61,972 nucleotides of DNA from Lachnospiraceae bacterium. GTDB taxonomy: Bacteria > Bacillota > Clostridia > Lachnospirales > Lachnospiraceae. This document shows, piece after piece, positions 28,151-53,455 of this stretch; position 1 is the stretch's first letter, and each line of letters opens with the position of its first letter. The stretch is taken from positions 1 to 61,972 of the forward strand of contig JAFZQY010000124.1 of assembly GCA_017620155.1 (NCBI GenBank). The letters run 5' to 3'. Made by a program: the position numbers and the translations under genes. Below the pieces are notes generated by a model, which saw nothing but the letters and a program-made list of their open reading frames with translations, ran no database searches and was not told the DNA's origin.

Positions 28151-29119
28151 ATGGAAAAGAAATACGCACTTCTGATAGACGCGGAGAATGCGGATATCAA
28201 ATATTTGAGCAATATTCTTAACGAACTGAAGACATACGGAAATGTAACATACAAGCGCATGTACGGCGACTTCACCTCGTCATCCATGAAGGACTGGAAC
28301 AGGCGCGCCCTCGAATATGCGATAGTGCCGATCCAGCAGCCTCACTATTCAAAATATAAAAATGCAGCGGATATAATGCTCGTCATAGATGCGATGGACA
28401 TTCTTTATAACAAGTCCGTAGACGGTTTCTGCATCGTATCCAATGATTCCGACTATACCAGACTCGTTAACCGCCTCTGTGAGGCCGGATACGAAGTCAT
28501 AGGAATGGGCTCGAGCAATGCATCCAAAACCCTTAAGGCAGCGTGTACCGAGTTTAAGAACCTGGAGAAGATCTTCTCAGATGATTTGGACAGCGTTGAC
28601 AGCAAACCTCAATCATTGAAGAAGGGCAAAAAGACCAATGCCACCGTATCCGAGGATGAATATGATGACAAGGGCTCGATCACTCCCGTTGAGGAGATCC
28701 GTCAGGCCATCATGGATCTTATCGGAAAAGAAGATGACAGGGCAGGACTCGGAGGGATCAAATCCACACTTCAGAGACAGTATACCGATTTTGATGAACG
28801 TAACTACGGTTTTACTTCGATCCGCAAGTTCATCGAGAGCATGAAGGATTTTCAGGTCATTCAGGAAGACAGCACGGTTTATGTTACACTGAAGAAGCCG
28901 GATATCGGCGAACTGGAGGTCAATCAGTTCATTCGCAGCCTGCTTTTCCAAAAGGCCTATGAGATGGGCGAACTGTCCAATAAGGTTCATGAAAGATTTG
29001 ATGGATTCAATCCGAAACATTACGGTTATAATCAGTTCGGCAAATTCGTATCCAATATAGACGGCGTTGAAGTCGTCAGAGACGATAACAACAATGCGAT
29101 CGCCAAACTCGAAGAGTAG
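28151..29119 (+). CDS. NYN-domain putative RNase with two OST-HTH/LOTUS domains
   Basis: The start is ATG 28151 (322 residues); upstream in-frame codons lack conservation and overlap the promoter. The N-terminal NYN (PIN-like) domain has the acidic residues expected for metal-dependent nuclease action: LLIDAENAD, DIMLVIDAMD and VSNDSDYTRLV. Two C-terminal modules of about 70 residues look like LOTUS/OST-HTH RNA-binding domains, each ending in a GF/GY-(T/N)-(S/Q)-(I/F)-(R/G)-KF pattern. This is the LabA/MARF1-like architecture known in bacteria but poorly studied. Substrate RNA is unknown. Confidence 0.87.
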   Translation: MEKKYALLIDAENADIKYLSNILNELKTYGNVTYKRMYGDFTSSSMKDWNRRALEYAIVPIQQPHYSKYKNAADIMLVIDAMDILYNKSVDGFCIVSNDSDYTRLVNRLCEAGYEVIGMGSSNASKTLKAACTEFKNLEKIFSDDLDSVDSKPQSLKKGKKTNATVSEDEYDDKGSITPVEEIRQAIMDLIGKEDDRAGLGGIKSTLQRQYTDFDERNYGFTSIRKFIESMKDFQVIQEDSTVYVTLKKPDIGELEVNQFIRSLLFQKAYEMGELSNKVHERFDGFNPKHYGYNQFGKFVSNIDGVEVVRDDNNNAIAKLEE

Positions 29120-29137: not shown

Positions 29138-30067
29138 ATGGCATATAACACTTTGTCATTTGACGAGAGATTATCGGAAAATATCAAGAACTACGCTTTA
29201 AGCACTCTGTATGACGAAAAAAAGGTGATGGGGGTCATCAAACGTCTTGCCAGACTGACCGGCATGGAGATCATGCTTACGGACAGACACGGTGAGAAGG
29301 CACTTGTATGCGGAGATTTTTCTCATTTTGCAATAGATGTGGTAAACGATCCGGGTTATAAGATCAGGGTCCAGAACAGGACCATCGCTCATCTGTATGT
29401 CAAGAAGGAGAGTATCGATCCTTCACATGAAAAAGAGTCCGAGGAACTCATAGGCGACCTCGTGGCACTTCTTTCATATCTTGGTGAGGAATCTTACAGA
29501 TACCGTGAATCATCGATCTATATCGATGAACTCGAAAGTCAGGTGAAGGCGAGTGCTGACAGACGATCCGGACAGGAGAAGACAGATCCTCTTACAGGCG
29601 TGTTCAACAAGACCTACTTTGATAAGCGCGCATCGATAATCGACAGATCCGAAGTCGCTCCCGTGGCTGTCATCGAAGCCAACATCAATGACTGGAAAGT
29701 ACATAACGACAATTTCGGAGATGAAGGCAGCGACCGTTTGATCCGTGTGATCGCCGGGATCATCAGCTCCGAAGCCAAGAAGGAATATGTGATCGGCAGG
29801 ACTGACGGAGATGTATTCGTTATTCTTATTCCGATGCCCGAAGACGGAGAGGCAGAAGATTATGTAAACCGAATCCGTGCCTGCTGTGAAAACTTTGAGG
29901 ATCCCTATCTTGTTCCTTCCATAGCATGTGGTCTGGTATATAAGGAAAATGTTGAGGAAACGATTGCTGACAAGATCTCGGATGCCGAGTACCTGATGTT
30001 TGAGAATAAGATCGAGATCAAGAATTCTCCTGAATATCAGGCAAGAATCGCCGGTATAACCGGCTAG
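29138..30067 (+). CDS. GGDEF-family protein with altered active site (DGDVF)
   Basis: A soluble 309-residue protein. Residues 1-120 look like a small GAF-like sensor domain. From about 148 there is a GGDEF domain starting TDPLTGVFNKTYFDKR, with the substrate-side motif EANINDWKVHNDNFGDEGSDRL reduced in places. The signature at 223-227 reads DGDVF instead of GG(D/E)EF, so the first Gly and the catalytic/metal-site Glu are replaced. It is more likely a sensor or GTP-binding regulator than an active cyclase. It sits between the NYN gene and a two-component system with short gaps. Confidence 0.82.
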   Translation: MAYNTLSFDERLSENIKNYALSTLYDEKKVMGVIKRLARLTGMEIMLTDRHGEKALVCGDFSHFAIDVVNDPGYKIRVQNRTIAHLYVKKESIDPSHEKESEELIGDLVALLSYLGEESYRYRESSIYIDELESQVKASADRRSGQEKTDPLTGVFNKTYFDKRASIIDRSEVAPVAVIEANINDWKVHNDNFGDEGSDRLIRVIAGIISSEAKKEYVIGRTDGDVFVILIPMPEDGEAEDYVNRIRACCENFEDPYLVPSIACGLVYKENVEETIADKISDAEYLMFENKIEIKNSPEYQARIAGITG

Positions 30068-30086: not shown

Positions 30087-30764
30087 ATGCGTATCCTTAT
30101 AGCCGAAGATGATGTGGCAACAGCGAAGGCTCTTAAGCTGCTGCTTGAAAAATCCAAATATTCTGTAGATATAGTTCATAACGGGACCGATGCCTGGGAT
30201 TACATATCCGAGGGCTCTTATGATGTCATCGTACTCGATATCATGATGCCGGGCATGAGCGGTCTTGAAGTTCTTTCCCTTATCCGCAAAAACCGTATAA
30301 CTACTCCGGTACTTATGCTGACTGCCAAGGCCGAGATCGAAGATCGCATCGCAGGCCTTGAAGCGGGTGCCGATGATTATCTTCCGAAACCGTTTGTGAC
30401 AGGAGAACTTATCGCAAGGATCAAGGCGCTCGGCAGGCGAAGCGAGACCTATACCGAAGATGTTCAGTCATTGGGGAATCTGGTTCTGGACAGCAACCGG
30501 TATGAGATGCGGGTTCAGGATAAGAGTATCGCTCTTACCAACAAGGAGTTCCAGCTGATGGAACTGTTCATTAAGCATCCCGGACATGTCTTTTCCACCG
30601 AGCATCTGATGAATAAGATCTGGGGATATGACTCCGAATCCGATATCGATGTCGTATGGACACATATCGGATATGTCCGTAAAAAACTCCGTAAGATTGG
30701 CGCCAATGCAGAAATAAAGACGATGCGCGGATCGGGATATGCGCTGGAGGTGACATCATGCTGA
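30087..30764 (+). CDS. OmpR-family response regulator
   Basis: A 225-residue regulator. The receiver domain has the acidic pair in AEDD (7-9), phospho-acceptor Asp51 in IVLDIMMPG, Thr in LTAKAE and Lys in LPKPF. The winged helix (about 130-222) ends with the usual HIGYVRKKL and MRGSGYAL. It overlaps the kinase gene by seven bases. The next operon, starting at 32100 with VTC, DUF4956 and CotH genes, is the nearest candidate target. Confidence 0.95.
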   Translation: MRILIAEDDVATAKALKLLLEKSKYSVDIVHNGTDAWDYISEGSYDVIVLDIMMPGMSGLEVLSLIRKNRITTPVLMLTAKAEIEDRIAGLEAGADDYLPKPFVTGELIARIKALGRRSETYTEDVQSLGNLVLDSNRYEMRVQDKSIALTNKEFQLMELFIKHPGHVFSTEHLMNKIWGYDSESDIDVVWTHIGYVRKKLRKIGANAEIKTMRGSGYALEVTSC

Positions 30765-31984
30765 AGAAGATGCGAAGACGCATGATCCTGGCCGCCATGC
30801 TTGCATTCTCTGCGGTCATATTGCTGATAGCTGTTCTTGTCAATCTCGTTAACTCAGCGGCTGTAGCCGGACGCGCGGATCAGACACTGTCTTATATCTT
30901 AAACTATGAAGCGCATCCCCCCACGGATCAGGGACCGGGAAAACCGCCCGGAGGCCCGTTTATGGCACTTCCCGATCTGGAAGCAAACTACATGACGCGT
31001 TTCTTCATAGTCCGCTTTGATACCGATAAAAATGTGATGTTTACATCCACCGATTATATTGCGGCCATAGATGAAGATGAAGCGGTCAGGTTTGCAGAAC
31101 GGGCTCTTAATCGAAAGTCAGACCGCGGATATATGGGTGAATACCGGTACTGTAAGTCCGAAACGAACGGATCCACCGTAGTAGTATTTCTTAATGTCAG
31201 CAGGGAAATACAGGAGATGAGGACCCTGAGGGTTCTTACTATCATGGTCTGTGCAGTGAGCCTTTTGCTGGTATTCGTACTTGTAGCGATCCTGTCGCGC
31301 AGGGCTATCAGACCTATCGCCAAAAACATAGAGAGACAGAAGCAGTTCATCACCGATGCGAGTCACGAGCTGAAGACTCCGCTCACCTCCATATCCACCA
31401 GCCTCGATGTGATCACGATGGAGCATGGAGATGATGAGTGGACCGATAATATCAGAACCCAGACTTCAAGAATGAGTAAGCTTGTTGCTGAGCTCGTTGC
31501 GCTCTCCAGGCTAGACGAAGAGATACCGCTCCCGAACAAGGAGAGTTTTTCGTTAAGCGCTGCCGCCTGGGAGACGGCAATGGTATATGAAACTCAGGCA
31601 AAAGCATGCGGAAAAGAACTGAACCTGGAGATAGCCGAGGACGTATCTGTACTAGGAGATAAGGCGGCGGTACAGCAGATGATATCTGTTCTTCTCGATA
31701 ATGCGATCAGGTATTCGGATCCCGAAGGGGAGATCAGGTTCAGTGTATATAAGAAAAGAAATAAGGCTGTGATCGAAGTGTTCAACACATGTGACTATGC
31801 CGAGCCGCCGGATACGGACCGTATGTTTGACAGATTCTACCGCCCTGACAGTTCAAGAAGCACCGAAACAGGCGGTAACGGAGTGGGCCTTGCGATCGCG
31901 AAGGCTGTCGCGGAAACGCACGGAGGAAGCATATCGGCCCGCTGCCCGAGCGGAAAGACCATGACGATCAAGGCCGTTTTATAG
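30758..31984 (+). CDS. Sensor histidine kinase, HAMP-less EnvZ/PhoR class
   Basis: A 408-residue kinase with membrane helices at about 10-31 and 158-180. The outside loop of about 125 residues starts with a Pro/Gly-rich piece (around 53-68). His203 in DASHELKTPL is the phosphorylation site of the HisKA domain. The ATPase domain has an N box (VLLDNAIRYSD) and the late GGNGVGLAIAK motif, but the usual DxGxG of the G1 box is not obvious (EVFNTCDYAEPPD instead). That may indicate reduced activity or a divergent lid. It pairs with the upstream OmpR regulator. Confidence 0.93.
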   Translation: MLKKMRRRMILAAMLAFSAVILLIAVLVNLVNSAAVAGRADQTLSYILNYEAHPPTDQGPGKPPGGPFMALPDLEANYMTRFFIVRFDTDKNVMFTSTDYIAAIDEDEAVRFAERALNRKSDRGYMGEYRYCKSETNGSTVVVFLNVSREIQEMRTLRVLTIMVCAVSLLLVFVLVAILSRRAIRPIAKNIERQKQFITDASHELKTPLTSISTSLDVITMEHGDDEWTDNIRTQTSRMSKLVAELVALSRLDEEIPLPNKESFSLSAAAWETAMVYETQAKACGKELNLEIAEDVSVLGDKAAVQQMISVLLDNAIRYSDPEGEIRFSVYKKRNKAVIEVFNTCDYAEPPDTDRMFDRFYRPDSSRSTETGGNGVGLAIAKAVAETHGGSISARCPSGKTMTIKAVL

Positions 31985-32001
31985 CAATTCATCATTCAGT
32001 T

Positions 32002-32031
32002 GAGGATGTCGAAAGACATCCTCATTTTTTT
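32002..32031 (+). terminator. Rho-independent terminator after the two-component operon
   Basis: Nine-base arms GAGGATGTC and GACATCCTC, loop GAAA, followed by A and seven T. It is a strong, classical terminator, so the VTC operon needs its own promoter in 32032-32085. That gap also holds two ATTTCA motifs 16 bases apart. Confidence 0.92.
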
Positions 32032-32099
32032 ATTTCACTTCAAGTACATTTCAGGTTGGGGTCATAGAATGAGAACAGATCACGAAAGGAGGACATAAA

Positions 32100-32792
32100 G
32101 TGGAACAGGAAAAGCATTACCGTCATGAACTGAAATACTCCATTCCGTACGCCGAATATCTGGCCATGAGGATGCGGCTTAGAGCAGTCATGACGACGGA
32201 TCCGCACACGGATGAGTCGGGATTATATCAGATAAGGAGCATATATTTTGATAACAGCGATGATAAGGCGCTGAAAGAAAAGATCGACGGCATCGCTTTG
32301 CGTGAGAAGTTCAGGATCCGGTATTACAACGACGATCTTTCCTTTATCACCCTTGAGAAAAAGATGAAAGTCGATAATCTCTGCGTGAAATACGACGCTC
32401 CGATCACCGAAGATGAGTGCAGAAGGATACTGGCGGGTGATACGGCCTTTATGAAAGATCATCCGGAAGACCTGGTCAGGGAACTTTATGTCAAGATGAA
32501 ATACCAGAGGCTCAGACCGCGAGTTCTGGTCTCGTATGTAAGAGAACCGTATATATACGCTCCGGGAAACGTGCGGGTCACATTTGATTCGCAGATACGG
32601 ACCAGCCTTTTTACGCAGGAGTTCCTAAATGGTGGGGTATCCGATATCAGTGCTACGGACAAGCCTCAGGATATGATACTCGAGATCAAGTATGATGCAT
32701 TTCTGCCCGGGGTCATACAGGACCTGGTAAGGGTCACATCCTTAAGACAACAGGCATTTTCAAAATACGGCGCATGCCGCAGATTCGGTTGA
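32100..32792 (+). CDS. VTC-domain protein, putative polyphosphate polymerase
   Basis: Starts at GTG 32100, seven bases after AAAGGAGG. The 230-residue soluble protein is a bare VTC domain, a tunnel-fold triphosphatase relative. The lining residues of the polyphosphate polymerase tunnel are recognisable: HRHELKYSI, IRSIYFDN, REKFRIRYY, ITLEKKMKV, LRPRVLVSYVREPY and the late Glu/Lys pair LEIKYDAFLP. It should make polyphosphate from nucleoside triphosphate if it acts like yeast Vtc4. It lacks the SPX and membrane domains of the yeast proteins, and the DUF4956 protein encoded 35 bases downstream may provide the membrane part. Substrate in bacteria is unproven. Confidence 0.88.
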   Translation: MEQEKHYRHELKYSIPYAEYLAMRMRLRAVMTTDPHTDESGLYQIRSIYFDNSDDKALKEKIDGIALREKFRIRYYNDDLSFITLEKKMKVDNLCVKYDAPITEDECRRILAGDTAFMKDHPEDLVRELYVKMKYQRLRPRVLVSYVREPYIYAPGNVRVTFDSQIRTSLFTQEFLNGGVSDISATDKPQDMILEIKYDAFLPGVIQDLVRVTSLRQQAFSKYGACRRFG

Positions 32793-32827
32793 TCAGACAT
32801 TTAAGTTAAGAAACGGAGGAAAAACAA

Positions 32828-33499
32828 ATGTCATTCAGTGATATCTTCAAATCCAGTTTTCTGGAAAGTGTAACGGAGTTTTCTGCTATCGATACTCTTA
32901 TCGGTATGCTCTTTGCCCTGGTGATCGGGCTGTTCATTTTTCTCATATATAAGAAAACGTTCAGCGGGATCATGTATTCGACCGGGTTTGCAATGTCTCT
33001 TGTGGGCTTAAGCCTTGTTACGACGCTTGTTATCATGGCCGTAACATCCAACGTGGTATTGTCACTCGGCATGGTCGGTGCGCTGTCTATCGTACGTTTC
33101 CGCGCAGCTATCAAGGAACCCATGGAGATCGTATTTCTGTTCTGGTCTCTGGCAGTCGGAATCGTGATCGGCGCGGGCATGATCCCTCTTGCAGTCATCG
33201 GCTCCGCTATCATCGGCGTGATCATGGTTCTGTTTGTAAATGTAAAAGTACGCAATACACCTTATATCCTGATCGTCAACTGTGCGGATGAGAAGGCTGA
33301 GGAGAGCGCTGTAAATATCATAGAAAAGTCAGTTGATAAGTATATCGTCAAGTCCAAGACAGTGAACGCTGCAGGAATCGAGCTTACCGCAGAGATAAGA
33401 GTTAAGGATGCTGCTACCGATTTCGTGAACCGCATCAATACCATTACCGGTGTATCGGGTGCGACCCTTGTTACCTTTAACGGAGAGTATATGTCCTAA
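32828..33499 (+). CDS. DUF4956 membrane protein
   Basis: A 223-residue protein with four membrane helices in residues 22-135 and a soluble domain of about 85 residues after them. The family hallmark GMVGALSIVRFRAAIKEP is present at about 84-101. The family has no assigned biochemical role, but it is repeatedly found next to VTC-domain and CotH genes. Gene order and spacing (35 bases after VTC, 12 before CotH) point to one complex. It may be a channel or export partner for the polyphosphate product (inference). Confidence 0.88.
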   Translation: MSFSDIFKSSFLESVTEFSAIDTLIGMLFALVIGLFIFLIYKKTFSGIMYSTGFAMSLVGLSLVTTLVIMAVTSNVVLSLGMVGALSIVRFRAAIKEPMEIVFLFWSLAVGIVIGAGMIPLAVIGSAIIGVIMVLFVNVKVRNTPYILIVNCADEKAEESAVNIIEKSVDKYIVKSKTVNAAGIELTAEIRVKDAATDFVNRINTITGVSGATLVTFNGEYMS

Positions 33500-33511
33500 G
33501 GGGGATCGGTC

Positions 33512-35257
33512 ATGGTTACGAATAAACATATATCCAAGATCATAATCGCTCTCATGGCCGTGGCCGTCATCGTGTGTCTGCTCGCTGTCGGATTTGCCGA
33601 CAAACTAAGCGGCATGCTCGGCGGGACCGGTGTGAAGATGGAGTATGAATCCCAACTCTTTGATACGGATGAGATCATCAGTGTAGATATTCAGATGGAC
33701 GAAGAAACATGGGAAGAAATGTTAAAGAACGCCATGTCCGAGGAATACTACGTATGTGATGTGGTGATCAACGGACAGAAACTGTATAACGTGGCGATCC
33801 GCCCCAAGGGTAATACCAGCCTGTCGTCGATCGCTATGGATCCCGATACCGACAGATACAGTCTGAAACTTGAATTTGACCATTTTGTGGACGGGCAGAC
33901 CTGCTACGGCCTCGATAAACTGATACTGAACAATAATTATGCCGATGCGACCAACATGAAGGAAGCGATCATATATGATATGTATCAGTATCTGGATGCG
34001 GACGCTTCGCTTTACAACTATGCTTCGGTCTCTTTGAACGGAGAATACCGGGGAGTATACCTCGCGCTTGAAGGCGTGGAAGAGAGCTTCATGCTCAGAA
34101 ACTACGGTACACAGGACGGAGAACTCTATAAGCCCGAAAGTATGGGCATGGGCGGCGGAGACGATAACGGCGGTATGAGCATGCCCGGAGGGGATTTCGA
34201 GGTCGATCCGGAGAACATGCCGGAAATGCCCGAGGGTGACTTCGAGTTCGATCCGGAGAATATGCCTGAAGGATTTGATTTTGATCCCGGAAACATGCCT
34301 CAGATGCCCGGCGGCGGAGGATTCGGACCCGGAAATAAACCGGAAGGCGGATTCGGACCATCAGAGGATGAAGCTTCCGACGATACAAGTGAGGCTCCGT
34401 CAGGTGACAGGTCGGATATGGGGGATTTCGAACCCTCCGAAGATAAGCCGGAGATGGGCAGCGGCGGAGGCCCGGGCGGTTTCTCGATGGGCGGTAACGG
34501 CGGAGCCAACCTGAATTATACTGATGATGATCTTGACAGTTATTCCACGATATGGGACGGAGAGGTGACAGGCACCGGTAAGGCCGACCATAAGAGAGTA
34601 GTCAAGGCTCTTAAGAACATCAGTGAAGGAAACGAGATTGAGAAATATCTCGATGTTGATAACATACTCAAATACATGGCGGTTCACACTTTTGCAGTAA
34701 ATATGGACAGCCTGTCGGGGAATATGGCCCACAACTATTATCTGTACGAGTATGACGGACAGCTGAACATCATTCCCTGGGACTACAACCTTTCATTCGG
34801 CGGCATGGGCGCAGGAGGCGGGGATGCCACGGAGATGATCAATGACTCGATAGATACTCCTTTTTCCGGGACTGAATTCTTCGATGCTTTGCTTGAGAAT
34901 GAAGAATATCTCGAGAAATACCACAGCTATCTTCAGCAGCTTGTAGACGAATATGTATATGGCGGGAGATTTGATGAGGTTTATAACAGGATCAGGAACC
35001 AGATAGATTCACTGGTTGAAACGGATCCTACGGCATTCTACAGCTATGACGAATATCTGACGGCTGCGGATATGTTATATCAGACGGTTATGCTCAGGGC
35101 TGAATCCATAGACGGACAGTTAAACGGAATGATTCCTTCAACTGATGAAGGACAAAGACAGGACAGTTCTTCTTTGGTAGATGGTTCATCTATTGATATT
35201 GAGGCAATGGGACAATTTGATATGGGTGGGGGCTCCGACCGGAGCCCCGATAACTAA
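33512..35257 (+). CDS. CotH-family atypical protein kinase, membrane-anchored, with Gly/Met/Pro-rich acidic insert
   Basis: A 581-residue protein with an N-terminal membrane anchor (about 9-30). The CotH kinase fold spans the rest, with RPKGNTSL (basic nucleotide-binding region), YLALEGVEESFMLRNYG and the metal-binding WDYNLSFG (423-430). An insert of about 125 residues (about 210-336) is made of Gly, Met, Pro, Asp, Glu and Phe, with an irregular repeat of the form FD/EPENMPEG. CotH in Bacillus phosphorylates spore coat proteins; here the kinase is outside the cytoplasm on vegetative membranes by topology. A GC-rich hairpin lies at its very 3' end. Confidence 0.85.
   Translation: MVTNKHISKIIIALMAVAVIVCLLAVGFADKLSGMLGGTGVKMEYESQLFDTDEIISVDIQMDEETWEEMLKNAMSEEYYVCDVVINGQKLYNVAIRPKGNTSLSSIAMDPDTDRYSLKLEFDHFVDGQTCYGLDKLILNNNYADATNMKEAIIYDMYQYLDADASLYNYASVSLNGEYRGVYLALEGVEESFMLRNYGTQDGELYKPESMGMGGGDDNGGMSMPGGDFEVDPENMPEMPEGDFEFDPENMPEGFDFDPGNMPQMPGGGGFGPGNKPEGGFGPSEDEASDDTSEAPSGDRSDMGDFEPSEDKPEMGSGGGPGGFSMGGNGGANLNYTDDDLDSYSTIWDGEVTGTGKADHKRVVKALKNISEGNEIEKYLDVDNILKYMAVHTFAVNMDSLSGNMAHNYYLYEYDGQLNIIPWDYNLSFGGMGAGGGDATEMINDSIDTPFSGTEFFDALLENEEYLEKYHSYLQQLVDEYVYGGRFDEVYNRIRNQIDSLVETDPTAFYSYDEYLTAADMLYQTVMLRAESIDGQLNGMIPSTDEGQRQDSSSLVDGSSIDIEAMGQFDMGGGSDRSPDN
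35229..35248. terminator. GC-rich hairpin at the convergent gene end
   Basis: GGGGCTCC and GGAGCCCC enclose GACC inside the last codons of the CotH gene, between convergent genes. No T tract follows on either strand, so termination strength is uncertain. Confidence 0.45.
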
Positions 35258-35264
35258 ATAAATA

Positions 35265-36599
35265 TCAGATACTTTCAACGACTGCCTTCGCATCTTCTAT
35301 GATGCGATCGCAGTCGGCTTCCGTTGCAGCCTCTGCCATGATACGGATCAGAGGCTCGGTGCCCGACTTACGAAGAAGCAGTCTTCCCGAACCGTTAAGC
35401 TTACTATTTGTTTCTTCTATATAACTAAGGATCTTCGGATCTTCCATGATCCTGTCTTTATCGGTGACAGCTATATTCACGAGCTTCTGGGGAAGGATCT
35501 TAAGGCCCAGAGGAAGAGCTGATGCAAATGTCTTTTTGTTCACTAGGATCTCGGTAACGATGATGGCGGTAAGGATGCCGTCACCGGTATTTGCATATTT
35601 GGATATGATGATGTGGCCGGACTGCTCGCCGCCGATCTTGTATCCGTGCTCTGCGATCTCGGCTGCAACATACTTGTCACCTACATCTGTGATGACCACA
35701 TCGATATCATTGGCTTTGAGGGCATTGATGAGGCCGAGGTTACTCATTACCGTGATAACGGCTTTGTTTCCGGTGAGCTTGCCCTGTTCCTTTAACATGC
35801 AGGCGATCATATATATGATGTAGTCGCCGTCCATGACTTCGCCTTTTTCATTGACAGCAATACATCTGTCGGCGTCTCCGTCAAAAGCAAAGCCTATATC
35901 GAGGCCTTTTTCCACAACGAAATTCTGAAGCGCTTCAATATGAGTGGATCCGCAGCCGCGGTTGATGTTCTTGCCGTCGGGCTGATCGGAGATAACATAG
36001 GTATCTGCGCCGAGCATTGCAAAAACGTTTTTGGCGATAGTTGATGATGCTCCGTTTGCACAGTCGAGACCTATCTTGTAGCCTCTGAAGCTTCCCTCGG
36101 GAATGGATGCGAGATGACCGATATAGGAGTTACGGCCTGCGAGATAGTCGATGCATCGGCCGGTTTCCTCGCTGACGGGGATAGTTCTTATTCCGTCGAT
36201 ATAGTCCTCTATCTCCTGAAGGAATTCTTCGTTCATCTTGTTTCCTTCGGAGTCGATGATCTTGATGCCGTTGTCATAGTAGGGATTATGGCTTGCGGTG
36301 ATCATGATGCCGCAGTTGAATTTCTCGCGCTTGGTTATATAGGAAACACTGGGAGTGGTTGTAACGTGCATGATATATACATCGGCACCCGAAGAAGTGA
36401 TCCCCGCACAGAGACCATACTCGAGCATGTAGCTGGAGCGGCGGGTATCTTTACCTATCACTATGCTGGCAGGAGTTCCTCCCTGAGAGAAGTACCAGCC
36501 TATATACTGGCCGATCTTTAATGCATGTTCTACGCTTAAGTCCTTATTGATACGGCCTCTGAAGCCGTCAGTTCCGAAATATTTCATATCTGTCTCCAA
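35265..36599 (-). CDS. glmM: Phosphoglucosamine mutase
   Basis: A 444-residue alpha-D-phosphohexomutase. The phospho-Ser is Ser103 in TASHNP, the metal loop is DGDADR, and the sugar-binding GGEQSGH and the phosphate loop RKSGTEPLIR are complete. It converts glucosamine 6-phosphate to glucosamine 1-phosphate for cell-wall precursor synthesis. It starts with KYFGTDGFRG, typical for GlmM, with ATG at either residue 1 or 5. It is divergent from groESL and has its own promoter. Confidence 0.96.
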   Translation of the reverse strand: METDMKYFGTDGFRGRINKDLSVEHALKIGQYIGWYFSQGGTPASIVIGKDTRRSSYMLEYGLCAGITSSGADVYIMHVTTTPSVSYITKREKFNCGIMITASHNPYYDNGIKIIDSEGNKMNEEFLQEIEDYIDGIRTIPVSEETGRCIDYLAGRNSYIGHLASIPEGSFRGYKIGLDCANGASSTIAKNVFAMLGADTYVISDQPDGKNINRGCGSTHIEALQNFVVEKGLDIGFAFDGDADRCIAVNEKGEVMDGDYIIYMIACMLKEQGKLTGNKAVITVMSNLGLINALKANDIDVVITDVGDKYVAAEIAEHGYKIGGEQSGHIIISKYANTGDGILTAIIVTEILVNKKTFASALPLGLKILPQKLVNIAVTDKDRIMEDPKILSYIEETNSKLNGSGRLLLRKSGTEPLIRIMAEAATEADCDRIIEDAKAVVESI

Positions 36600-48469: not shown

Positions 48470-49387
48470 GTGGTTCATGTTTTTATACTAAATCCCGAAT
48501 ATGTTCAGAAAGGGTTTGCGGAGCAACTCAGACAGAAACTGGCCCGGATACCGGACCTGACTTACTATGTCTTCCTGACTGGTGCGGCCGGAGACGAGAC
48601 CAGGCTTGCTTCCACTATCGAAGATATCTTTCAGGAGGATCAGCTTCGTATCTACAGCTGCGGAGGCATTTATTCGGCTCGTAAGGTGCTGGCCGGGATC
48701 AACGATATCAGCAAGGTTGAACTGGCGATCATTCCCACAGAACCGATCCATTTTCTTGAGGCATTCGGCAAGCAGCAGGATTTTGCCGATATCGAATCCA
48801 TGATCAACGGTTCCGTGACCAGGGTTGACTATATACGTACCAATCACGGAGTCGCGATCAACAGCGTAACGTTCGGATTGGAATCATACGCCTACAGAGG
48901 CCATGACAATCTCATAGGCTTAAGCGTGATGGGACGGGGGCTTATATGGGTTCTTGCCAGTCTTTATGCGCTCATTCTTACTCCCAATTACATGTATTCC
49001 GTTGATATAGAGAAGAATCCCTGCAGATACAGGGCGATGGAGGTCAGCATATACAATGTGCCGATCACTTCGAGTCATACGGTTTTTTCGGATGATTGGA
49101 GCGTTAATGACGGACTTGTCAAGTTTATTCTTGTTTCCAGGTTCGGGGCGATCGGCCGTTTTATCTATGCTATCAGAGCATCCAGACACAAGATCGCATT
49201 CAGCGAGGATAATCCGAAGAACATGATGTGTGACGTCAGCAATGTTAAAGTGCGTCATGAAAACGGCGTTCCGATCTGGGGCTGTCTGGACGGAAGTCTG
49301 ATCAATGCTGTCGACTGGAATATTGATGTTGTAAAGCACGGATTGAAACTGGTTATTCCTGCGAGGTACGAGCATGAAGAACAATAA
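48470..49387 (+). CDS. Diacylglycerol kinase-like protein lacking catalytic motifs
   Basis: GTG 48470 is the only sensible start, with a weak site (GAGG) upstream. The 305-residue protein has the DAGK/YegS fold pattern (VHVFILNPE start, RIYSCGG, IIPTEPIHFLEAFG, HGVAINSVTFGLES). The nucleotide motif that should read GGDGT is CGGIYS (64-69), and the GTGND-type motif is TEPIHF. Key Asp, Gly and Thr residues are therefore gone and kinase activity is unlikely. A hydrophobic stretch lies around 148-170. The gene overlaps the hybrid kinase gene by 14 bases, suggesting it works as its input or partner. Confidence 0.78.
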   Translation: MVHVFILNPEYVQKGFAEQLRQKLARIPDLTYYVFLTGAAGDETRLASTIEDIFQEDQLRIYSCGGIYSARKVLAGINDISKVELAIIPTEPIHFLEAFGKQQDFADIESMINGSVTRVDYIRTNHGVAINSVTFGLESYAYRGHDNLIGLSVMGRGLIWVLASLYALILTPNYMYSVDIEKNPCRYRAMEVSIYNVPITSSHTVFSDDWSVNDGLVKFILVSRFGAIGRFIYAIRASRHKIAFSEDNPKNMMCDVSNVKVRHENGVPIWGCLDGSLINAVDWNIDVVKHGLKLVIPARYEHEEQ

Positions 49388-51779
49388 GCTCGGCGTCATC
49401 ATCAATATGATCTGCAGTTTCATAGTGATCATCATCTATCTGATCATAATCAACACTGCGAGTGATCTGATGGAGAGTCAGATCGTTTTTCTGAATCTGT
49501 TTTTGGCGATAGCCTGTGTGGTTCTTATCGTCAGTGCATTAAGTTCCGATATCAATCCGCGTATTCCGAAACTTGTAATAGTTCTGTTGTATGCCGCACT
49601 TTGTGTGGTATCCCTGTTCGTTAACGGAAGCAATTATATGCTTTTCCAGCTTATGATGCTTTCTCTCGGAGCAATTTCGCTCCTGATGAGCAGGAATTCG
49701 TTCCATCTGATGATGGCATTAAATACTTTGCTAGCCCTGGTGTTATGGGTTATCCCCATACCCGGTGTAGACTATGCCTTTTCAAACAGGGATTATGCGC
49801 TTAATCTGCTGATCCTGGCATCCGAATATGTGATCCTATATATCGTATTAAGCGCCATTCACAGAAGGGAAATGCTTCAGATAGAGTCCAACCAGACTGT
49901 TGAAGAACTTATCAAGGTCATCGGCGCCAAGAGAGAAGCCGCCATGGATGCCAGCCGTGCCAAGAGTGACTTCCTTGCAAATATGTCCCATGAGATCAGA
50001 ACTCCCATAAATGCGATCCTGGGATTTAATGAGATGATCCTCAGAGAGAATTCGGATGCGAACGTCAACGAATTTGCTCTGGATATCAGAAGCTCAGGCA
50101 ATTCACTGCTTGCTCTGATCAATGACATACTCGATTTCTCCAAGATCGAAGCCGGCAAAATGGAGATCCTGCCCGTAACATATGATCTGGGAACCATGCT
50201 TAACGACATGATCAATGTCATCGGATTCAGGGCATCGGAGAAAGGCTTAAGTCTCAAGTTTGACGTGGATCCGTCTGTTCCGCATGTATTATACGGAGAT
50301 GAGGTCAGGATCAAACAGGTCATCACCAATATACTTACCAATGCCGTCAAATATACACAGGAAGGTTATGTGGACATGACGGTGGGCTTTGAACAGATAG
50401 ATGACTATCAGATCATGCTCAAGGTCAGTGTAACTGATACGGGACAGGGCATAAAGGAAGAAGATATAGATAAACTCTATCAGCCGTTTGAGCGTGTGGA
50501 CGGTGTTAAGAACCGCAATATCGAGGGTACCGGACTTGGCATTCCGTTGACTTGTACGATCCTGGGCCTGATGGGTTCCAAACTCGATATACAGTCGACA
50601 TACGGTGTGGGCTCCACTTTCTCTTTTATGCTCAGACAGGAAGTGGAGAACTGGGAGCCTCTCGGATCTCTTGATGAGGCGATCCGCAGGGCCAAGGCGG
50701 AGACAACTGAAGAACATCAGTACTTCAAGGCTCCGGCTGCCAGAATACTCACTGTCGATGATATACCTCTTAACCTCAAGGTATTCCAGTCGCTCCTTGC
50801 CAGAACCGAGATCCGCATAGATACGGCTTCCGGCGGTATGGAAGCTCTGTCCTTGATGCGTAAGACCAAATACGATATGGTTTTCCTGGATCATATGATG
50901 CCCGAGATGGATGGTCTGGAAACATTTGAACGAATGAAGTCGGACAGATTCAATGTCAACCGCTACGATACGCCCGTCATAGCACTTACTGCCAATGCGG
51001 TATCGGGAGCGCGTGAACTTTACATGGACAAAGGGTTTGAAGATTATCTGACCAAACCCATCAATTCGATCAAACTGGAGAATCTGATCCTTAAATACCT
51101 GGATCCTTCGCTTGTGACCATGATCGACAAGGAGGAAGAACAGGAGAGTAAGGAGGATGAAGTATCCTCCGAGATGAAGGACTTCCTGAGCGCTGTCCGT
51201 AAGATCCCCATGATCGAGGTCAATGTCGGTGTGGATGCTTCGGGCGGAGTAGAACTGTACAAAAGCGTTCTGCATGACTATATGGAGACCATTGAGCCGT
51301 ATTCGGCCAGAATAGAAGGCTTCTATAATGAGCGTGACCTTGATAACTACCGTATTCAGGTTCATGCACTTAAGAGCACATCGCGTATGGCCGGTGCTTC
51401 CAGAGTATCGGAACTGGCCAGAGAACTGGAACGTGCCGCAGACACGGGAAATCTGGAATTCATCCAGGAGAACACCGCAGAACTCTTAAGGCTGTATCGT
51501 GAGCTCAGGGATCCGCTCAAGGCCGTATTCGGAGTGGCTGATGAGCAGGACGACAGACCCGAGATAGATCCGGGGATGTTTAAAGAAGGATTGACGGCCA
51601 TGAGAGAAGCTGTTGATTCATTTGACTATGATCTGATAGAATCTGTTATGTCCGAATTTGAGAATTACCGCATGCCGAACGGCTTTGATGAGGATTATTC
51701 GAAACTTAAGCTTCTTATCGCCGAAGTTGCCGGAGACGATATAGCGGCTTTGCTTGATAAATGTTTGGAGAAACTGTGA
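49374..51779 (+). CDS. Hybrid sensor histidine kinase with receiver and Hpt domains
   Basis: An 801-residue protein. Residues 1-163 hold about six membrane helices with very short outside loops. Then come HisKA (His206 in MSHEIRTPI), the ATPase domain (N box ILTNAVKYT, G1 DTGQGI, G2 GTGLGIPL), a receiver domain (Asp506 in VFLDHMMPEMDG; Lys in LTKPIN) and an Hpt domain (His664 in VHALKSTSR). The phosphorelay is complete up to Hpt, but no DNA-binding regulator is encoded next to it. The signal is probably sensed in the membrane or through the overlapping lipid-kinase-like protein. Confidence 0.95.
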   Translation: MKNNKLGVIINMICSFIVIIIYLIIINTASDLMESQIVFLNLFLAIACVVLIVSALSSDINPRIPKLVIVLLYAALCVVSLFVNGSNYMLFQLMMLSLGAISLLMSRNSFHLMMALNTLLALVLWVIPIPGVDYAFSNRDYALNLLILASEYVILYIVLSAIHRREMLQIESNQTVEELIKVIGAKREAAMDASRAKSDFLANMSHEIRTPINAILGFNEMILRENSDANVNEFALDIRSSGNSLLALINDILDFSKIEAGKMEILPVTYDLGTMLNDMINVIGFRASEKGLSLKFDVDPSVPHVLYGDEVRIKQVITNILTNAVKYTQEGYVDMTVGFEQIDDYQIMLKVSVTDTGQGIKEEDIDKLYQPFERVDGVKNRNIEGTGLGIPLTCTILGLMGSKLDIQSTYGVGSTFSFMLRQEVENWEPLGSLDEAIRRAKAETTEEHQYFKAPAARILTVDDIPLNLKVFQSLLARTEIRIDTASGGMEALSLMRKTKYDMVFLDHMMPEMDGLETFERMKSDRFNVNRYDTPVIALTANAVSGARELYMDKGFEDYLTKPINSIKLENLILKYLDPSLVTMIDKEEEQESKEDEVSSEMKDFLSAVRKIPMIEVNVGVDASGGVELYKSVLHDYMETIEPYSARIEGFYNERDLDNYRIQVHALKSTSRMAGASRVSELARELERAADTGNLEFIQENTAELLRLYRELRDPLKAVFGVADEQDDRPEIDPGMFKEGLTAMREAVDSFDYDLIESVMSEFENYRMPNGFDEDYSKLKLLIAEVAGDDIAALLDKCLEKL

Positions 51780-51787
51780 GGAGTATC

Positions 51788-53455
51788 ATGAGAAAGGCAT
51801 TACTGAAAATATTAGGCTTGATGACTGCGTTTCTGATATGTCTGTCTTTTGCGTTAGCGCTTGATCAGACTGAGGCTTATGCGGCCGAAGGCGGCATCGC
51901 ATCTGATGTATTTGTGTATGTTCCGTTCGGAGAAGGACGAAGCGTCAATATTTCTCTTACCGATGTCGGCGGCAGAACCTGTCTTTTCCTTCCTTCCGAC
52001 ATGAGCGTTACCGGCGTGGTATTCCATTATGATACGGAGAGTGAAGAGATAAGATTTGCAGACGGAACCGTTCTGGTACCGGATACCGCTGTCGATATAA
52101 GCAGGTATCTTTCCAAGGATACGGGTGACGGAAGCCGCGTGCTCACCCTTACGACAGTCAAGGCCGGAGCCGAGGCTTCATATGATATCTATGTGATGCA
52201 GTCTGCCAATATACCCAGCGTATTCATAACCAGTTCCGATCCGGCTCACGGCAGGACCTATGTAGATGAATCCAAATCTAATAAGGCGACCGGCTCCATG
52301 ACCATGCTCACATCTTCCGGAGCAGTCGTTTATGACGGCGCATTAAGCCAGATCAAAGCCAGAGGAAATACTACTTTTAATGCCGATAAGAAGGCTTACC
52401 AGATCAAATTGGGTGCGGCCGTGGATCTTACCCAGACAAGCTCAGCCCAGGCGAATAAGACATGGATCCTTCTTGCGAATGCATATGATCCGACACTTAT
52501 CCATAACACTGCGGCGTACAGAATGGCGGATTCCTTCGGATTGAACGCACCTGATTGCAGACCTGTAGACCTGTATTATGACGGTATCTACAGGGGCAAT
52601 TATCTGCTCTGCGAGAAAGTCCAGACCGGTACGGGGCGTGTGGAGATCCCGGATCTTGAGAAGATGACCGATGATGCAAATTCGGGCAAGGATCTGTCAA
52701 AGCTTCAGACAGCGACCGGTGCAAACAGATACGGCGATATATATCAGTATGTAACGGGAGTGAAAACTCCGGATAGCTATGACGGCGGATATCTTCTCGA
52801 ACTTGATAATGCATATTACAAGGGGGAGAGAAGTTACTTCATCACATCGACCGGAGTGGCATTTGTAGTCAAGAGTCCCGAAAACTGCTCCAAAGAAGAG
52901 ATGATATACATCTCCGAGTATGTTGAAGAGATGATATCAGCTTCGTTAAACGGCGGCGTTAATCCCATGACCGAAAAGAGCGTATGGGATTATATCGATC
53001 TTAAATCGCTTGCAAGATTCTTTGTATTGCAGGAGACGGTATGCAATGCGGATTCATTTGCGAGCTCCAACTATTTCTATCTGGCGGGAGCAGGTGAGCC
53101 GATGGTAGCCGGCCCTGTATGGGATTTCGATGATTCGTACGGCATAAGAGATGACAGGACTTCCGCAGAAGGCTTCGTCGGGGGCACTTTCATTGAGCCG
53201 TTCATGAACCTGCCCGAATTCAGGAAAGAAGTTAAGAACTTCGTATCTTCGGGAACATACACCAAGGCTGTTTCCGGCAAGATCGATACATATGTCTCCG
53301 AGATAGCAGCTTCCCAGAAGATGAACCGCATATTGTGGAATGATTCGGACCAGATGTATACCAAGCTCGAGTCTTATGATGCCGATATCACTTATATGAA
53401 GAACTATGCTGCATCCAGAGTTAAGTGGCTTAAGGGCGTCTTTGCCACCTGGTAA
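51788..53455 (+). CDS. CotH-family secreted protein kinase
   Basis: The start is ATG 51788 after GTGAGGAG, giving 555 residues. Residues 1-30 form a signal peptide ending near AYAAEGG. An N-terminal beta-rich domain (about 35-155) precedes the CotH domain, with KARGNTTFNADKKAYQIKL (basic/nucleotide region), YLLCEKVQTG and the metal motif WDFDDSYG (445-452). It has no membrane anchor after cleavage, so it is probably released or held at the wall. It is the second CotH gene in the window and, unlike the first, has no VTC or DUF4956 partner. It lies eight bases after the hybrid kinase gene. Confidence 0.85.
   Translation: MRKALLKILGLMTAFLICLSFALALDQTEAYAAEGGIASDVFVYVPFGEGRSVNISLTDVGGRTCLFLPSDMSVTGVVFHYDTESEEIRFADGTVLVPDTAVDISRYLSKDTGDGSRVLTLTTVKAGAEASYDIYVMQSANIPSVFITSSDPAHGRTYVDESKSNKATGSMTMLTSSGAVVYDGALSQIKARGNTTFNADKKAYQIKLGAAVDLTQTSSAQANKTWILLANAYDPTLIHNTAAYRMADSFGLNAPDCRPVDLYYDGIYRGNYLLCEKVQTGTGRVEIPDLEKMTDDANSGKDLSKLQTATGANRYGDIYQYVTGVKTPDSYDGGYLLELDNAYYKGERSYFITSTGVAFVVKSPENCSKEEMIYISEYVEEMISASLNGGVNPMTEKSVWDYIDLKSLARFFVLQETVCNADSFASSNYFYLAGAGEPMVAGPVWDFDDSYGIRDDRTSAEGFVGGTFIEPFMNLPEFRKEVKNFVSSGTYTKAVSGKIDTYVSEIAASQKMNRILWNDSDQMYTKLESYDADITYMKNYAASRVKWLKGVFATW

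Follow-up and report, generated by a model that had tools for sequence, protein, structure and literature searches.

A two-component-controlled VTC, DUF4956 and CotH cassette from a Lachnospiraceae bacterium: a possible split synthase/translocase serving the cell surface

Which function could unite a VTC-domain protein, a DUF4956 membrane protein and a CotH kinase-family protein whose genes follow one another, just behind a two-component system (TCS), in a Lachnospiraceae bacterium? These genes lie in a stretch of 61,972 nucleotides (hereafter the window), which is one entire contig (C28; JAFZQY010000124.1) of a 2.84-Mb draft genome (GCA_017620155.1) from an organism described as a rumen-type gut bacterium. 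From the comparison of this cassette with its relatives, we give about even odds (probability around 0.5) to a two-component-controlled, split bacterial VTC synthase/translocase that would serve the cell surface.

The pairing of VTC with DUF4956 is beyond chance. It was followed in a class sample of 148 genomes and in a phylum sample of 249 Bacillota genomes, some genomes being common to both. In the class sample, 72 genomes carry both families, four carry VTC alone, one carries DUF4956 alone and 71 carry neither. In the phylum sample, the two families are confined to the identical 35 genomes, with 42 copies each; 41 of the 42 pairs are on the same contig and strand (VTC-DUF4956, n = 34; DUF4956-VTC, n = 7) and the remaining one is split over two contigs. 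At the class loci, DUF4956 lies directly 3′ of 78 of the 89 VTC open reading frames (ORFs), the median gap being 4 nt; the 11 exceptions partly correspond to contig ends or to wrong choices by a simple ORF caller, and L111 has DUF4956 first. Furthermore, VTC and DUF4956 distances correlate (77 pairs, r = 0.91 without correction for species ancestry). Of the 14 named genomes used as controls, three contain VTC as well as DUF4956, namely those of Bacteroides ihuae, Corynebacterium glutamicum and Methanosarcina acetivorans, and CotH was found in the latter two and in Bacillus subtilis. An initial sequence-only reading of the window had expected VTC, DUF4956 and CotH to co-occur. This is nearly absolute for VTC and DUF4956, and 54 of the 59 CotH-bearing class genomes also have VTC, but CotH can be replaced. 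Since Cthe_2159, a surface protein unrelated to CotH, can take its place, the invariant core of the cassette is VTC plus DUF4956. This pair was not found with an assigned role in the open-licence PMC literature, where DUF4956 appears in three papers and the cassette in one of them.

Some loci show peculiarities around or within this pair. A Hymenobacter plasmid (L219:3488-6600) carries DUF4956 without a recognised VTC, preceded by proteins of 235 and 359 aa that have no Pfam match, and a lipoprotein-like protein with a metallo-beta-lactamase fold is encoded immediately 5′ of VTC in L062, L067 and L070. Among named organisms, Lachnospiraceae bacterium XBB2008 has the VTC closest to that of the window (86% identity). 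VTC proteins 73-79% identical to that of the window were found at L133, L126, L147 and L148, under record titles naming Atopobiaceae, Solobacterium and Erysipelotrichaceae; they may reflect lateral transfer or binning errors.

The VTC protein of the window looks like a working Vtc4-type enzyme, with polyphosphate as the product predicted from its residues. VTC is its sole Pfam match and it has no hydrophobic segment, SPX and the fused C-terminal membrane domain being absent. A profile of near relatives matches yeast Vtc4 weakly (E = 0.014); a profile built from 52 diverse VTCs matches it at E = 8e-19, the other matches above E = 0.02 being VTC subunits alone. The tunnel residues had been read as intact, and this is borne out: 10 of the 11 mapped Vtc4 positions (K200, R264, R266, K281, K294, R361, R373, E426, K428 and K458) are identical in the window protein (K12, R72, R74, K88, K97, R148, R159, E195, K197 and K222, respectively), and the eleventh, R253, corresponds to K61. 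The correspondences of E426, K428 and K458 derive from another HMMER domain of low score, the spacing of which reproduces 426 and 458. Positions other than R264, R266, E426 and K458 are presumed to be functional. Over 120 proteins, the 10 identical residues are 99-100% conserved and K61 reaches 65%. R264 and R266 are reported as essential in yeast (PMC8749416), E426 as the residue mutated to inactivate the VTC complex (PMC9911596) and K458 as catalytic in Vtc4 and dispensable in AtTTM3 (PMC4641920).

The DUF4956 protein has five predicted helices (residues 20-44, 52-72, 76-94, 98-115 and 119-143), a conserved R90-F91-R92 motif and a C-terminal ACT/ferredoxin-like domain at about 145-216. It looks like a remote relative of MgtC, as suggested by a profile match that spans 202 columns in a comparison made without negative control.

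The slot behind the core pair is variable. The gene that follows VTC-DUF4956 (n = 78) encodes CotH in 28 cases, Cthe_2159 in 20, other ORFs in 12 and a regulator in two, and nothing lies close in 16. In the tree of these 78 pairs, one half is CotH-rich and the other Cthe_2159-rich, and swaps of the third gene occur inside groups with good support, as in L043/L049 and L086/L109. The window CotH aligns with structure 5jd9, and its kinase residues K119, N397-x-D399, N408 and D424 are invariant in 29 proteins. CotH had been placed outside the cell by the sequence-only reading: the membrane anchor was indeed found, and the extracellular position of the kinase domain is an inference from charge distribution, because many relatives add to the N-terminal membrane segment a C-terminal one followed by basic residues. 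CotH matches split by an insertion within one ORF were found in 15 proteins, all 15 of them encoded directly 3′ of VTC-DUF4956 (as counted by hand). Segments with at least 40% glycine, proline and methionine in 50 residues are also frequent near VTC in CotH (53/92) and Cthe_2159 (18/31) compared to other ORFs (6/1514). They were rejected as a VTC-specific signature: since members distant from VTC also carry them, they are family traits (for CotH in the class sample, 3/23 away from VTC vs 13/43 near, p = 0.14; for Cthe_2159, 9/20 vs 18/28, p = 0.24).

Two further CotH genes deserve mention. In L092, the CotH gene next to VTC-DUF4956 is broken by a single in-frame TAA. A second CotH gene is present in the window at 51761-53455 (region 48470-53455); it is preceded by a hybrid kinase gene (49374-51779; receiver and Hpt domains) and by a gene for a 305-aa protein without Pfam match, and MBOAT and GDSL genes lie just upstream.

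Cassettes of this type recur in exopolysaccharide loci. PelF-, PelG- or DUF2194-type genes lie beside the cassette in L047, L085 and L096, and the part of PMC7112168 devoted to Gram-positive pel clusters reports CotH, a poly-phosphate polymerase and DUF4956 beside them. Seven loci have the order VTC, DUF4956, CotH and a 720-residue protein, followed by HEAT and GT2 genes where the contig extends, a GT2/HEAT/GH72-like set that resembles plasmid H2 of Planococcus; on a Pseudobutyrivibrio plasmid, CotH-VTC-DUF4956 is inside a polysaccharide cluster. Many cassettes have no adjacent polysaccharide genes. Among them is that of the window, whose neighbours are the genes of a GGDEF protein and of the TCS, glmM and groES/groEL and which has no contiguous pel genes, the rest of the genome not having been searched for pel. 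Because the third gene encodes a surface protein and is often near exopolysaccharide genes, a role of the product at the cell surface or in the matrix appears likely.

The complete five-gene series, from regulator to CotH, accompanies 18 of 48 VTC ORFs in the named loci and three of 89 in the class loci, with order and strand unchanged; when only a regulator and a kinase at most five genes from VTC are required, the numbers are 22/48 and 23/89, respectively. In the window, two membrane segments of the kinase flank its small extracytoplasmic sensor, in which a PPGGPF...TRFF stretch is found. A direct repeat, TTCAGGT-TCAT-TTCAGGT in the consensus of relatives (TTCAGGT-N4-TTCAGGT), precedes VTC; its layout is similar to that of PhoB/PmrA-type boxes. 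The window site, two mismatches off the consensus, is the sole match at three mismatches or fewer, compared to 0.01 in shuffles. Fifty-three loci (946 kb) contain 35 sites vs one for the reversed pattern, and the repeat stands just 5′ of VTC in 26 of the 53, with the best -10-like hexamer 8 nt 3′ of it in 21 of these 26 (offsets of 5-12 tried, no control). L129, L130, L132, L151 and L170 have an extra site some 2 kb farther 5′, which the spacing would place close to the regulator gene. Among the 20 loci with an adjacent two-component pair, 17 have the repeat upstream of VTC (all except L161, L162 and L165). Control by the adjacent kinase, as first proposed from the sequence, is thus well supported: it is strongly suggested that the kinase/regulator pair controls the VTC promoter via this putative operator. 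The TTCAGGT direct repeat upstream of VTC is new in this analysis.

Since the consensus was built from the same 53 loci, a search of 299 genomes of the family (at most one mismatch) is a more independent test. It revealed 14 sites in 13 genomes compared to none for the reversed pattern. Six are at a VTC ORF, at 61-65 nt (L246, L249 and L254), about 320 nt upstream (L251) or within an over-long ORF call (L245 and L256). Four adjoin a kinase/regulator pair with another target, an SLH protein (L247/L257 and L255) or an HlyD-like protein (L250). Of the remaining four, one (L248) precedes a short ORF with BNR repeats that is followed by a regulator, and three are inside other ORFs (L244, L252 and L253). 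The link between repeat and VTC is not exclusive, as G026, G087, G113 and G137 have VTC without a site within one mismatch of the consensus. In L247 and L255, the repeat and the same kinase/regulator type adjoin genes of SLH-domain surface proteins, which fits an envelope signal. Two extensions were rejected: a larger regulon in this genome (G000), where three further two-mismatch sites are all inside ORFs, and a sensor exclusive to VTC loci, the sensor profile matching 42 places in 36 of the 148 genomes, nine of them (counted by eye) at most 5 kb from VTC.

Taken together, these data are compatible with the following mechanism. The soluble VTC protein would make polyphosphate from ATP in the cytoplasm. 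The conserved arginines and ACT-like cytoplasmic domain of DUF4956 would receive the chain and pass it through the membrane, DUF4956 replacing the three-helix membrane part fused to yeast Vtc4. The third gene would supply a surface protein, which in the window is a membrane-anchored and probably extracellular CotH kinase and at other loci a beta-helix protein of the Cthe_2159 type, and the kinase/regulator pair would turn on a single promoter before VTC via the TTCAGGT repeat. Exported polyphosphate might even be the phosphoryl donor of CotH, giving a relay from ATP to polyphosphate to surface phosphorylation under one two-component switch. We consider this relay improbable; if true, it would account for the action of a kinase in the ATP-poor extracellular space and for the fact that insertion-type CotH occurs only behind VTC-DUF4956 in our sample.

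Several observations weigh against a split synthase/translocase. Because an ordinary PPK1 is present in the same genome, the cassette is not the sole candidate route to polyphosphate; VTC was also rejected as a PPK1 substitute, their presence being independent (both in 27 of 148 genomes vs 23.6 expected, p = 0.29). The co-divergence of VTC and DUF4956 (r = 0.91) ignores shared species ancestry. The predicted structure of DUF4956 is of moderate confidence (predicted local distance difference test 75.8, predicted template modelling score 0.57), its similarity to MgtC comes from the uncontrolled comparison, and DUF4956 is the sole Pfam match of the window protein at E up to 0.01, MgtC (PF02308) not being detected. 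Among the solved structures listed, matches concern the C-terminal domain only and none the membrane domain, which does not in itself exclude such a match. Finally, E10 of the VTC protein is acidic where Vtc4 has a threonine. This residue, at an acidic position of hydrolytic members in an alignment by motif spacing, and the common tunnel superfamily would suit a CYTH-type tripolyphosphatase instead of a polymerase. Triphosphate-hydrolysing relatives bear four glutamates (Glu-2, 4, 90 and 171 of AtTTM3, according to the part of PMC4641920 concerned), but the window protein has R8, E10, K97 and K197 at those places (with an inferred match for Glu-90): three of the four are basic, as in Vtc4. Since the Vtc4-catalytic, AtTTM3-dispensable lysine is moreover retained as K222, hydrolysis appears highly improbable.

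Three further explanations were considered. VTC and DUF4956 could form a membrane enzyme moving the gamma-phosphate of ATP to a polysaccharide, a lipid carrier or a surface-bound molecule, CotH or Cthe_2159 acting on the same matrix polymer. The recurrent exopolysaccharide loci (Pel-type, GT2/HEAT/GH72-like and Pseudobutyrivibrio plasmid) and the PPK1 already in the genome point that way, but the mapped ATP, metal and chain residues of Vtc4 are kept, including basic positions that are glutamate in hydrolytic relatives, and many cassettes, including this one, have no neighbouring polysaccharide genes; we hold this proposal to be unlikely. We are equally sceptical of a role of the pair at the membrane in regulating or sensing phosphate, magnesium or ATP, as thought for MgtC, without polymer export: surface partners, exopolysaccharide context and invariant VTC catalytic residues are hard to explain by regulation alone, even though the MgtC-like fold, the ACT-like domain and the adjacent TCS would agree with it. 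The clustering could also serve co-expression only, CotH phosphorylating a surface or polysaccharide-machinery protein with ATP by an unknown route unrelated to VTC. That CotH also occurs away from VTC (as do the 23 proteins counted above) and is proposed, in the pel-related part of PMC7112168, to regulate Pel makes this conceivable, but all 15 insertion-split CotH proteins are encoded directly behind VTC-DUF4956 and we find it rather doubtful. If a split synthase/translocase is the right explanation, bacteria possess, in addition to PPK1, an equivalent of the eukaryotic polyphosphate synthase/translocase, delivering its polymer to the cell surface. DUF4956 would then have a function, as the membrane partner in an obligate pair, it would become possible to test where bacterial extracellular CotH kinases obtain their phosphate, and the operator would give direct access to the conditions under which the system is on.

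Table 1. Features of the cassette and of its control region in the window
Feature	Positions	Strand	Basis
OmpR-family response regulator (Response_reg and Trans_reg_C)	30087..30764	+	ORF call, Pfam
Sensor histidine kinase (HisKA/HATPase_c)	30758..31984	+	ORF call, Pfam
Hairpin resembling a terminator, followed by T7, in the gap that separates the kinase gene from VTC	32001..32024	+	Hairpin scan
Direct repeat TTCAAGT-ACAT-TTCAGGT with a period of 11 bp, operator-like and proposed to bind the response regulator	32039..32056	+	
-10-like hexamer TAGAAT, 8 nt 3′ of the repeat	32065..32070	+	
VTC-domain protein, 230 aa, soluble, Vtc4-type tunnel residues, GTG start	32100..32792	+	
DUF4956 membrane protein, 223 aa, ATG start	32828..33499	+	
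CotH kinase-family protein of 581 aa with a membrane segment near the N terminus (residues 10-28), ATG start	33512..35257	+	
Gly/Met/Pro/Asp-rich insertion, interrupting the CotH domain match	34157..34507	+	

The layout first read from the letters (OmpR/kinase pair, terminator, then VTC, DUF4956 and CotH) was recovered by ORF calls, Pfam and the hairpin scan, all on the same strand (Table 1); among the three cassette genes, only VTC has a GTG start, so that the mention of GTG starts is wrong if it was meant for all three. Pfam scores are 131.9 bits for VTC (cut-off 23), 43.6 for DUF4956 (30.6) and 188.5 for CotH (23.8). The regulator and kinase ORFs overlap by 7 nt, and the gaps are 115 nt between kinase and VTC, 35 nt between VTC and DUF4956 and 12 nt between DUF4956 and CotH. 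The hairpin, a 10-pair stem followed by T7 exactly between the two-component and VTC units, has the longest stem listed in the terminator scan of the region, where eight such sites were found vs 5.1 expected in shuffles, a count that by itself is not significant. The operon is bounded at 35265 by glmM on the reverse strand, and groES/groEL also lie downstream (names given from translations, without search). On the other side, a GGDEF-domain protein whose signature reads TDGDVF, so that the cyclase motif looks degenerate, is encoded directly 5′ of the regulator (29138-30067), and an NYN nuclease domain with OST-HTH/LOTUS domains is encoded two genes before it (28151-29119).

Several known systems resemble this cassette in part. 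The N-x-D and D residues in the kinase domain of the window CotH match those of the spore-coat kinase CotH of Bacillus subtilis, but the window protein is not encoded in a spore-coat locus and differs by its membrane anchor, its insertion and its VTC-DUF4956 partners. DUF4956 resembles the MgtC/SapB family by the profile match and by its predicted ACT-like C-terminal domain, whereas it is below Pfam MgtC detection and has an obligate VTC partner and the RFR motif. NELoc-2 of Clostridium perfringens (CP4_0460-0468) also combines VTC, a small membrane protein, CotH, HEAT and GT2, as do L075, L078, L084 and L087; in the part of PMC2879425 describing it, the small protein is named tubulin/FtsZ-like and no TCS is mentioned. 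Compared to the Gram-positive pel accessory genes, as presented in the relevant part of PMC7112168, where cotH, poly-phosphate polymerase and DUF4956 are likewise adjacent (with similar neighbours in L047, L085 and L096), the window cassette has no adjoining pel genes but has a dedicated TCS, an operator-like repeat and a long CotH insertion. The eukaryotic VTC complex (Vtc4/Vtc3/Vtc1) has the same tunnel domain and catalytic residues, and the section of PMC9911596 on this complex makes cytoplasmic synthesis beside a multi-helix membrane part plausible here too. Unlike this complex, the bacterial cassette has neither SPX nor a fused membrane domain, and it comprises a separate MgtC-like DUF4956 gene, a surface protein as third gene and control by a TCS.

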